Shown piece after piece: positions 47,193 through 50,582 of a DNA stretch of 64,000 bases. The notes beneath the pieces are model-generated. The model had not been told where the DNA came from and did not search any database. It saw only the letters and a program-made list of their open reading frames with translations. The stretch lies in assembly GCF_032842345.1 (NCBI RefSeq), contig NZ_WBKO01000001.1:1116001-1180000 (forward strand), written 5' to 3'. The DNA comes from Methanoculleus caldifontis. Lineage in GTDB: Archaea; Halobacteriota; Methanomicrobia; Methanomicrobiales; Methanoculleaceae. Within the stretch, counting starts at the first letter, position 1. Each line of letters begins with the position of its first letter. Position numbers and translations under genes: made by a program.

Positions 47193-47572
47193 TTTTAACA
47201 CCTCTCAATAGTTGAGAACACGATAGTATCGCCAAGTTCTCATATAAACGTTTTGAAATGCCCTGGAAGTCGCCCTGGAGCATCCCTGCCGGGAGAGGGG
47301 CGCCCGTATGGGGTTCTCCGGTGATCGCGGAGCGATGCATAAAATACCTGGGGTTGAGGGGGGCGCGCGGTGCCTCGGCGCTTGCAGGGGTGGCTGCCGG
47401 CGGGTCCGGGGGATGGCAATCCTCTCCGTATCTCTCCTGCAGCGGTATATTGGCGCTCCGGTTCTGGATACGCTGCGAGTGTCCAGGGGGGTTCCGGACT
47501 TCCCTTCCGAAAGGTCTGCCCGGGAGGGAGTTAAGGAAAAGTGTTTAAATTTCGGCCGTCAATATATGGGTG
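47193..47572. promoter_or_regulatory. Divergent mtd/tfx promoter region
   Basis: A 380-base gap with no gene. Minus strand: TATA CGTTTATATG (47241-47250) and the GAGGTG at 47199-47204 serve mtd. Plus strand: TTTAAAT (47544-47550) serves tfx, about 23 bases before its ATG. Any operator for Tfx would lie here (inference). Confidence 0.55.
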
Positions 47573-47977
47573 ATGAAACAAGGTCTGCTTACCGACCGCC
47601 AGAAGGAAGTGCTGCGCTACCGGAAGAAAGGGCTGACACAGCAACAGATCGCAGAGATCATCCATACCTCAAAGGCAAACGTCTGCACCATTGAGAAGGC
47701 CGCTCTTGAGAATATCTCGCGTGCACGCGAGACGCTCGAGTTCCTCTACACGCTCGATGCCGTCCACCTCTGCACCCTCCAGGGCGGCCTTGACCTGCTC
47801 AAAGCTCCCGATATGATCTACAGTGAAGCCGAGAAGATGGGGCTGAAGGTCAAATACGACACGATAACGCTCATTAACAGGCTCAGGGACACGAATCCCG
47901 ACCGCTTCAGGGGCAGGCAGGTCCGCGAGAACGTCGAGATCTACATCAACGAGGACGGCGACCTGTACTTCGGGTGA
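47573..47977 (+). CDS. tfx: Tfx family DNA-binding protein
   Basis: A 134-residue archaeal regulator of the Tfx family. Residues 1-60 form a helix-turn-helix typical of sigma-70 region 4-like domains (LTDRQKEVLRYRKKGLTQQQIAEII, then SKANVCTIEKAALENI). The remainder is the Tfx C-terminal domain (LLKAPDMIYSEAEKMGLKVKYD ... GRQVRENVEIYINEDGDLYFG). In Methanothermobacter Tfx binds downstream of the formylmethanofuran dehydrogenase promoter (known). The GTG at 47570 is rejected in favour of ATG 47573 (MKQGLLTDRQ), and the message is probably leaderless. It lies divergent from mtd. Confidence 0.92.
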   Translation: MKQGLLTDRQKEVLRYRKKGLTQQQIAEIIHTSKANVCTIEKAALENISRARETLEFLYTLDAVHLCTLQGGLDLLKAPDMIYSEAEKMGLKVKYDTITLINRLRDTNPDRFRGRQVRENVEIYINEDGDLYFG

Positions 47978-48178
47978 CGGGGTCATCGAGCGCGCGCCCG
48001 CGCGGATATCGGGCCGGTGGGCGCGTGGCCTGGAGGCGGACCTCCTCCGGCCGCTCAACATGAAACGGGGCATAGAAGGCCCTTCGTTCATCCTTGCGGT
48101 CTATCCCGCCGCAGAACCGGTGCCGCACCTGCAGCAGGCACTCTCCCTCCAGAATCCCCGGGGAATCATATAACAAGA

Positions 48179-48186
48179 TTTATATC
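48179..48186 (+). promoter_or_regulatory. TATA box upstream of a hairpin-rich segment
   Basis: TTTATATC preceded by ACAAGA. Transcription would start near 48210. The next protein start (L3) is about 600 bases on, so the element serves either a very long leader or a separate RNA. Confidence 0.5.
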
Positions 48187-48204
48187 TCATTTTTTGCAAT
48201 GTTT

Positions 48205-48520
48205 AAGAAACCGCTCTGTACTCCTCTGCCCGGATCCGGGAGTCTTCAGGCACGTCTCGTGCCTCTGATTCCCGTAATCTCTCCGGTTCCGCAAAAATCG
48301 CGGATCGGAGACATGCGGCGGGGGGGCACGGGTAAAAGCGGGTACCAGACAGAGTGAAGGCCGAACCCTCCTCACGGAGGGCCGATGTCGATACGGAGTT
48401 GTGCTCGTCACAACGGGATGACAGGAGCTGGATCTGATCGAGACGCTGGGCCAACGCCAGTGCAGCGCGCCCGGTTTCGGGAGTTCTCTCCCCGGAAGCG
48501 TCAAAGAGTCAGGATCTATT
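48205..48520 (+). ncRNA. Candidate structured RNA or long ribosomal leader
   Basis: No coding frame. Hairpins in order: CCCGGATCCGGG (48229-48240), AGGCACG-TCT-CGTGCCT (48248-48264), TCCGC-AAAAATC-GCGGA with outer pairs (near 48288-48307), CCCTCC-TCAC-GGAGGG (near 48367-48382) and GTTGTG-CTCGT-CACAAC (near 48398-48414). All are compact and lie downstream of a good TATA box. RNase P RNA and SRP RNA signatures were looked for by eye and not found. The boundaries are approximate and the RNA itself is inference. Confidence 0.35.
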
Positions 48521-48806
48521 GGCGACGACTGGAATGAACCCGGATTGCACTCCGGGCCGGTAGCGGGTGGAGCAATTGGAGAAGACGACGGGAGACCGTT
48601 CTATTCCCCTATCCCCCGCTGCCTCCATCAACTGTTTCCCTTACGCCATGCCTTTCCGGCGTGGCGTTCGATATCCCGCCCCTTACGGGTTCGCCAGAAT
48701 GACCGATCGTGCCGGCATGTCCGGCATGGGTTCGGTGCGTACACCGTTCTGCAGCAGGCTGCAGTCGACGTATCAGACTACAATGCACGAAAGGGTTGAT
48801 TGAAAC

Positions 48807-49820
48807 ATGGCGAACATTCACAGGCCACGCAGAGGATCTCTTGCGTACAGCCCGAGAACGCGGGCAAAAAGCCCGATCCCCCGCTACGGCTCATGGCCGG
48901 ACTACGCGGGAGCCCCGGCTGTGCAGGGATTTGCCGGGTACAAAGTGGGGATGACCCACGTCATCATGGTGGACGACCGCAAGAGCAGTCCCACCGAAGG
49001 CAGAGACGTGATGGTGCCGGTGACCGTGGTTGAGGTCCCGCCCATGAGAGTGGCGGGCGTGCGCGCATACAGCGAGGACACCTACGGGAAGCACGCGCTG
49101 ACCGAGGCTTGGACGACCGACCTCGACGAGGAGTTGTCCCGCCGCATCAACGTCCCGAAGAACCACGACACCAGCGCGGCTATTCTCGCTATCCGGGACG
49201 CTATCGGCGCCGGCAAGGTAGCAGAACTCTACGCTCTGACCTACACCCGGCCCGCAGAGCTCACCGGTGTCCCGAAGAAGGTCCCCGACCTGATGGAGAT
49301 GCGGATCGCCGGCGGAAGCCTCGATGAGCAGATCGCGTACGCAGAGGGAATCCTCGGCAAAGAGATCGAACTCACCGGGAACCTCGAGGTCGGCGAGTAC
49401 GTCGACGTGACCGCGGTCACTACCGGTAAGGGCACCCAGGGCCCCGTCAAGCGCTGGGGTGTCCAGGTCCGGAAGCGGAAACACTCCCGCGGCGGCAAAA
49501 AGCGTCACATCGGCACCCTCGGTCCGTGGAATCCTCACCACATCAGGTGGCAGGTCCCCCAGATGGGCCAGATGGGCTACCAGCAGCGCACTGAGTTCAA
49601 CAAGCGCATCTTGAAGATCGGCACGAACGGCGACGACGTCACGCCGGCAGGCGGTTTCCTCCACTACGGCCTTGTGCGCGGTCCTTACGTGCTGATCAAG
49701 GGCTCCGTTCCCGGCCCGAACAAGCGGCTGATCCGGATCCGTCCCGCAATTCGGCAGGGTGAACAAACCGTCCGCGCGCCGACGATCAACTTCGTCAGCA
49801 CGCAGAGCATGCAGGGGTGA
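48807..49820 (+). CDS. rpl3: 50S ribosomal protein L3
   Basis: Large-subunit protein near the peptidyl-transferase centre and first gene of the ribosomal cluster. The 337-residue archaeal-length protein begins [19 protein letters not shown] and has [46 protein letters not shown] (split family signature with GxGxxGxxKR) and the central [16 protein letters not shown]. The ATG at 48807 is preceded by a weak ribosome-binding context. A long non-coding region precedes it. Confidence 0.97.
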
Positions 49821-49826
49821 GCAGCG

Positions 49827-50582
49827 ATGAAGGCACAGGTTCGAACACTGACAGGTGAGGTCGCTCACGAGATCGATCTCCCGGAAATCTTTACGGAAGA
49901 ATACAGACCCGACCTGATTAAGCGGGCAGTCCTCGCGCTCCAGAGCACCCGGTTCCAGCCGCACGGGACCGACCCCTACGCCGGCATCCGCACCTCGGCA
50001 GAGTCCTGGGGTAGCGGGCGCGGTGTCGCTCAGGTTCCCCGTCTGAAGAACGGCAGCAGGGTGGCCCGGGTGCCCCAGGCAACCGGCGGGCGTGCAGCGC
50101 ACCCCCCGAAGGTCGAGAAGGTCCTCGTCAAGGAGATCAACCGCAAGGAGAAGAGGAAGGCTTTCCGCTCTGCCGTTGCAGCCAGCACGTCTGCCGAACT
50201 CATCCAGGGACGCGGGCACCTCTACGAGGTCGCAGGCAGCCTCCCGCTGGTCTTTGAGGACCGGTTCGAGGGGGTCACCCGGACGGGCGACGTTATCGCG
50301 GCACTCACGGCTCTCGGAGTCTATGCCGACGTCGAGCGGGCGAAGGACAGCAAGAAGGTCCGTGCAGGACGCGGAACCATGCGTGGCCGCCGCTACAAGC
50401 AGCGCAAGAGCGTCCTCATCGTCACCGGGAACGAGCCGCTCCGGGCAGCCCGGAACCTCGCCGGCGTCGATGCCGTCGCGGTCGACCAGCTGAACACCGA
50501 ACTGCTCGCACCCGGCACACAGGCAGGACGCCTGACGGTCTGGACGGAGTCTGCAATCAGGAGGCTGGAGGAGCTCTCATGA
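49827..50582 (+). CDS. rpl4: 50S ribosomal protein L4
   Basis: Assembly-initiating large-subunit protein, archaeal/eukaryotic L4 type (251 residues). The N terminus is VRTLTGEVAHEIDLPEIF. The extended loop that lines the exit tunnel follows (YAGIRTSAESWGSGRGVAQVPRLKNGSR). The Rossmann-like end has SVLIVTGNEPLRAARNLAGVDAV. It starts six bases after L3 and overlaps L23 by 4 bases. Confidence 0.97.
   Translation: MKAQVRTLTGEVAHEIDLPEIFTEEYRPDLIKRAVLALQSTRFQPHGTDPYAGIRTSAESWGSGRGVAQVPRLKNGSRVARVPQATGGRAAHPPKVEKVLVKEINRKEKRKAFRSAVAASTSAELIQGRGHLYEVAGSLPLVFEDRFEGVTRTGDVIAALTALGVYADVERAKDSKKVRAGRGTMRGRRYKQRKSVLIVTGNEPLRAARNLAGVDAVAVDQLNTELLAPGTQAGRLTVWTESAIRRLEELS

Follow-up and report, generated by a model that had tools for sequence, protein, structure and literature searches.

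What lies between the promoter and the first coding sequence of the ribosomal-protein cluster in this window, the 64,000-nucleotide stretch of Methanoculleus caldifontis DNA analysed here? The initial annotation had placed a TATA box at 48179, a hairpin-dense stretch at 48205-48520 and the start of L3 at 48807, and had offered two readings of the interval, an unnamed structured RNA or a long regulatory leader of the ribosomal genes. The landmarks were borne out: the TATA box sequence occurs once in the window, and a PF00297 match confirms the L3 start, which leaves about 600 untranslated bases ahead of rpl3 (620 bases between TATA box and start). The surrounding features are as follows.

47570-47977: gene for a Tfx-type regulator (TFX_C DNA-binding protein), upstream of the leader and followed by a spacer
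48179-48186, forward strand: TATA box of the presumed operon promoter, TTTATATC, the sole exact match in the window
48791-48803, forward strand: Shine-Dalgarno region of rpl3, AAGGGTTGATTGA (identity of 48786-48806, 0.940)
48807-49820, forward strand: rpl3, the first gene downstream (PF00297, 295 bits)
49827-50582, forward strand: rpl4, the published candidate ligand of the leader family (PF00573, 133 bits)

The promoter region is conserved within the genus, with a mean pairwise identity of 0.845 at 48158-48207 (31 congeneric loci) against 0.526 in the spacer just before it (30 loci). The stretch is also as rich in structure as had been claimed: 48205-48806 folds at -266.2 kcal/mol, whereas its dinucleotide shuffles average -233.2 (sd 6.8), giving a z of -4.87, and none of 20 shuffles reaches the native energy. 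Mechanical open reading frames of up to 105 codons are present in the leader. The one tested, at 48385-48537 over the conserved core, is without a Pfam match, and a 2-nt deletion disrupts it in three congeneric loci (L015, L016 and L018). By eye, a short motif at the presumed transcript start, 48207-48216, is alike across families (AAGAAACCG, AGGAAGCCG, AGAACCGG), and a similar one stands some 20-30 bases past the TATA boxes of order loci that lack the gene described below. With tblastn the Tfx-type gene was found in almost every order locus that extends far enough upstream.

The RNA is not wholly unnamed. A cmscan search places RF03135 (L4-Archaeoglobi) at 48434-48512 with 45.7 bits, above the gathering cut-off of 34.5, and a permissive scan of 47900-48900 returned besides it only two matches, both far under their own cut-offs. 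RF03135 is a predicted ribosomal-protein leader (Eckert and Weinberg 2020, PMC7247131; Rfam 14, PMC7779021), which Table 1 of PMC7247131 assigns to the Archaeoglobi, rates as borderline and lists ahead of rplC, rplD, rplW and rplB. According to the same paper, L4 was assigned as the ligand of the archaeal motif by analogy with the bacterial L4 leader, and that assignment is where the two resemble each other. The earlier reading stands in that the conserved RNA is larger than the named family: it is an element of about 48361-48556 with RF03135 at its centre, set within a leader that is conserved across the genus. The interval first proposed was correspondingly too short, as conserved structure runs to 48556 and, within the genus, up to rpl3. 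The parts of the leader are these.

48208-48337, forward strand: 5' domain, a closing stem with inner hairpins and weaker sequence conservation (identity 0.657)
48366-48381, forward strand: hairpin H1, CCCTCC/GGAGGG, beyond the Rfam model (by eye, pairs uncounted)
48398-48414, forward strand: hairpin H2, GTTGTG/CACAAC, beyond the Rfam model (both-side changes in 7 of 7 pairs in order loci)
48434-48512, forward strand: three-way junction, RF03135 (both-side changes in 6 of 6 pairs of P2 and 6 of 6 of the variable hairpin)
48539-48556, forward strand: hairpin H4, CCCGG/CCGGG with a GCAC loop, beyond the Rfam model (by eye, without a control)
48624-48642, forward strand: TCCATCAACTGTTTCCCTT, a conserved segment (identity 0.873) with partial complementarity to the L3 Shine-Dalgarno region
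48643-48667, forward strand: hairpin in the 3' part of the leader (alignment A6, columns 130-155)

The three-way junction pairing of RF03135 is conserved, and the RNA lies ahead of the rpl3-rpl4 operon. Within the junction the CUGA/UCAG stem and the GGG/GCC core are nearly invariant, while P2 and the variable hairpin covary. H1 is visible in the aligned genus loci and in the homologous stretch of two relatives, L001 and L002, and H4-like hairpins with differing stems occur in many of 74 loci (both by eye, the latter without a control). The outer parts gave pair counts that are weaker evidence, being made without shuffle controls: RNAalifold on 31 loci predicted 23 pairs in the 5' domain with both-side changes in 9, and in the 3' part 20 of 53 predicted pairs show such changes (29 loci), including at least one in 8 of the 10 pairs of the hairpin at 48643-48667.

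Conservation within the genus was measured on a set of 35 genomes including the window's own; 33 of them yielded a locus that comprises L3 together with the sequence ahead of it (G018 and G027 dropped out). Across these 33 loci, identity at 48393-48480 is 0.96, against 0.53 in the spacer and 0.76 at third codon positions of L3. The first and second codon positions of L3 stand at 0.93 and 0.96, and the core is thus as constrained as the second codon positions of a ribosomal protein. Mean pairwise identity is 0.94 at 48361-48433, 0.87 in the Rfam part and 0.89 at 48513-48556 (30 to 33 loci per region). Exact matches to a pattern of the core number 24 stretches, from Methanoculleus or from unclassified Methanomicrobiales and Euryarchaeota records (named genomes).

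Outside the genus the element has a different setting. The top RF03135 matches among the relatives, L001 and L002, sit within reading frames; the L001 protein belongs to PF02598, a putative RNA methyltransferase family, and the L002 protein is matched by the same profile. This family, Methyltrn_RNA_3, comprises SPOUT-type RNA methyltransferases related to human SPOUT1. In our sample of 245 genomes of the phylum Halobacteriota, RF03135 occurs in 156 and PF02598 in 128. The two coincide in 126 of the 128 gene-bearing genomes (the exceptions are G080 and G117), and the 30 genomes with RF03135 and no PF02598 are every one in the window's order, Methanomicrobiales. The laboratory species Haloferax volcanii is among those in which both models have a match. 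Coordinates were obtained for 150 RF03135 matches, 121 in gene-bearing and 29 in gene-less genomes. All 121 lie within the PF02598 gene, on the same strand and in one codon phase, and the match length is 1 modulo 3 in 120 of the 121, versus 18 of the 29 in gene-less genomes. Wherever neighbours were read, the PF02598 gene stands directly ahead of rpl3. In the two exceptional genomes (loci L146 and L147) the protein loop at the RNA site is shorter by eye; perhaps the RNA arrived together with a loop of the PF02598 protein, or influences its form. Weak RF03135 matches away from rpl3 in two genomes (G001, L043:2211-2340; G034, L045:2004-2142) were set aside as chance, R1, the model introduced below, giving about 16 bits at each; the L043 site falls within a glucan phosphorylase-like frame.

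An RNA motif inside a conserved gene could be no more than the shadow of a conserved protein, in which case the copy in the window would be a fading, functionless pseudogene. The single codon phase of the motif in a conserved gene fits that account, as does the borderline rating in Table 1 of PMC7247131. At 63 gene-bearing loci, two in the order and 61 beyond it, we permuted within each gene the codons used for the same amino acid, which preserves the protein. The motif window folds below its codon shuffles with a mean z of -3.48 (se 0.16, 63 genes), the loci having been selected through RF03135, which itself scores structure and covers those 126 of 128 gene-bearing genomes. No more than 5 of 100 shuffles fold as low as the native sequence at the motif in 57 of the 63 genes; it is not extreme in the other six, two of which are the intact order genes. 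Elsewhere in the 63 genes, windows have mean z values from -1.54 to -0.01. As a control, 603 windows of 38 L3 genes average -0.73 (sd 1.21), seven of them at or below -3.48, and in the two PF02598 genes without RF03135 (G080 and G117) no window falls under -2.08. The extra RNA structure of the methyltransferase gene is located exactly at the motif. These protein-preserving shuffles contradict the shadow account, and so do the identity of the frame-broken core in the genus, with its 0.96 against 0.76 at third positions of L3, and the compensatory changes in gene-less loci reported below; we regard it as highly improbable.

In the window's order the RNA mostly stands without the gene. Gene absence is defined by profile searches of assemblies: PF02598 is found in 2 of 61 relatives and in 2 of the 159 genomes of the order with a completeness of 85% or more, the same two genomes each time, and the profile has no match in the 35 genus genomes including the window's own. 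That genome keeps merely a nucleotide-level remnant of the middle of the gene, with no protein match. Nucleotide homology between the window and the intact genes covers 48338-48626 (against L002) and 48367-48555 (against L001). Outside this core the 5' flank is marginal (40 against a 95% null of 35, and 47 against a null maximum of 45), the 3' flank gives no signal (24 and 28 against nulls of 28 and 30), and the 5' domain of the leader, 48208-48337, shows no clear homology with intact methyltransferase genes. Of the 74 aligned loci, counting the two intact genes, 49 have a stop-free frame that spans the short element, and one gene-less locus, L027, has a stop-free frame of 417 codons; such frames are thus uninformative on coding, and gene absence rests on the PF02598 searches.

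The RNA is retained almost throughout. A sample of 25 order genomes was selected for having been missed by RF03135; L3 is present in 23 of them, and the region ahead of it is uncut in 22. There the element can be made out by eye, in degenerate form in L162. We built a model, R1, comprising H2 and the three-way junction, from 10 gene-less loci of one family. It matches the window at 48392-48517 and 74 of 76 order loci, made up of 72 of 74 gene-less loci and both gene-bearing ones; in the two that it misses, L161 and L165, the element can still be seen by eye. In every order locus matched by R1 the element lies directly upstream of rpl3. The R1 alignment (70 distinct rows) has 93.9% of its cells paired and both-side changes in 25 of 32 pairs, with none of 500 shuffles as high. 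As this alignment was fitted to the R1 structure, the counts are tilted in favour of the model. Alignments A1 and A2 were not used for counts because some helix arms are placed unevenly in them. The covariation score is 0.443, compared with 0.142 when shuffled and at most 0.084 when slid. The initial annotation had looked to covariation with related genomes for evidence that the stems are conserved, and both the identity within the genus and the compensatory pairs in the order loci supply it. The gene is nearly absent from the order, yet the RNA is kept with compensatory pairing; the RNA has therefore outlived its host gene. The most decayed copy among the order loci, at 23.9 bits, is that of L162 (genome G165), a candidate for loss in progress.

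How often the gene was lost was read from an L3 tree of 57 rows, in which the order forms one group (support 100/99). The two gene-bearing members sit apart, G052 branching first in family f2 and G043 in f3 (support 92/88 and 84/93). Parsimony with equal costs gives three changes (two to three in bootstraps), which may mean one loss and two regains; on a losses-only reading at least four losses are needed. Regain from outside the order is unlikely because the loop that encodes H2 (SHNG, KHNG) is limited to the two intact order proteins, being seen by eye in none of the other 61 translations, and gene-less members of the order mostly have H2. Exchange of the gene within the order is a possible alternative to repeated loss. 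The RNA has probably outlived its host gene several times, and on balance we favour the broader proposition that within this one order a coding gene turned several times independently into a noncoding regulatory leader, the embedded RNA and not the protein being the indispensable part.

We consider it likely that the stretch is an untranslated leader of the L3-L4-L23 operon, organized around an RF03135-centred RNA that was kept when the methyltransferase gene was lost, and that it would serve autoregulation. In this model the leader would be built around the conserved RNA of about 48361-48556; in most other Halobacteriota with the element, one message would both code for the PF02598 protein and fold into the RNA, whereas in the window's order the gene would have been lost, probably several times, and the retained RNA would now be noncoding. 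The RNA would bind an operon-encoded protein, L4 as published or L3, and lower expression when that protein is in excess. Since the gene is absent from gene-less genomes, the methyltransferase is not a needed ligand, and L3, encoded by the next gene, is no weaker a candidate than L4. In gene-bearing archaea translation passes through the element, whereas in the window it is untranslated, and for that reason a control step that does without its translation, such as mRNA folding or decay, seems likelier. Of the two earlier readings, the long structured leader is the better one, with regulation its presumed role. Autoregulatory leaders of this kind often, though not necessarily, resemble the 23S rRNA site that their protein binds; a search of the genome's own 23S locus with R1 gave no match (best E 0.69), and simple patterns likewise, while a likeness in three dimensions is possible. 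RNase P RNA was considered and rejected, as the genome's single RF00373 match lies on another contig (G000:C2).

Three other functions were weighed against this leader. The element might autoregulate or serve the methyltransferase in place of the ribosomal genes, as would be suggested by all 121 located matches lying within it; its retention under strong constraint in genomes without detectable PF02598 makes this very unlikely, and a second role in gene-bearing species is possible. Alternatively, the promoter at 48179 could drive a separate trans-acting small RNA, with rpl3 under its own promoter. A compactly folded region that begins at a conserved promoter is what such an RNA would present. 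The element, however, lies directly ahead of rpl3 in all R1-matched order loci and inside the preceding gene elsewhere, and no terminator-like site was found in a search that did not cover archaeal terminator types. We judge a separate small RNA unlikely; the position of the element directly ahead of rpl3 and the promoter at 48179-48186 agree with a shared transcript. Finally, the leader could hide the L3 Shine-Dalgarno sequence by pairing it with 48624-48642, which is conserved and is paired with that region by RNAalifold. Those pairs show no both-side changes, and the best duplexes between leader and Shine-Dalgarno sequence are at shuffle level (mean z +0.56 in the genus, n=33; +0.29 in others, n=43), so that we find this mode of action doubtful.

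The autoregulatory leader that we favour is a known but borderline RNA family confirmed, enlarged and re-placed: an RNA inside a gene, and outliving that gene. As in the published description of RF03135, the window's 48434-48512 scores above the family cut-off and precedes the same operon. It departs from the Archaeoglobi-only range given in Table 1 in that matches extend to the window's order and, in the phylum sample, to 156 of the 245 genomes, a difference that concerns the published range and not the identity of the window's RNA. It departs as well in lying inside PF02598 genes or standing as a gene-less leader, and in being larger by H1, H2 and H4. Where a PF02598 gene is present it hosts the RNA; the window's genome has no match to this profile. 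In the literature searched, which does not extend to the supplement of the source paper, we found no statement that RF03135 lies inside a methyltransferase gene or outlives it.

In the archaeal L1 autoregulation of Methanococcus vannielii, the binding site lies inside the coding region. RF03135 resembles that site as a candidate ribosomal-protein regulatory site within a reading frame; the L1 site is in the gene of the ligand itself, whereas RF03135 sits in a gene for an enzyme, one that lineages can lose. The findings show, within one order and with both states extant, a dual-use message that sheds its protein and leaves a noncoding RNA. They widen the range of a ribosomal-leader family with a borderline rating, published for a single class, to much of a phylum, adding strong covariation and enlarged boundaries, and, by removing the methyltransferase as a necessary ligand, they make the choice between L4 and L3 directly testable.

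A further observation concerns one gene-less locus, L148, where, about 100 bases ahead of L3, CTCAATCTCGG and then TTTACGATGCGG look like the part of the intact L001 gene that codes for the C-terminus; a second remnant of the methyltransferase gene may thus survive in some gene-less leaders.
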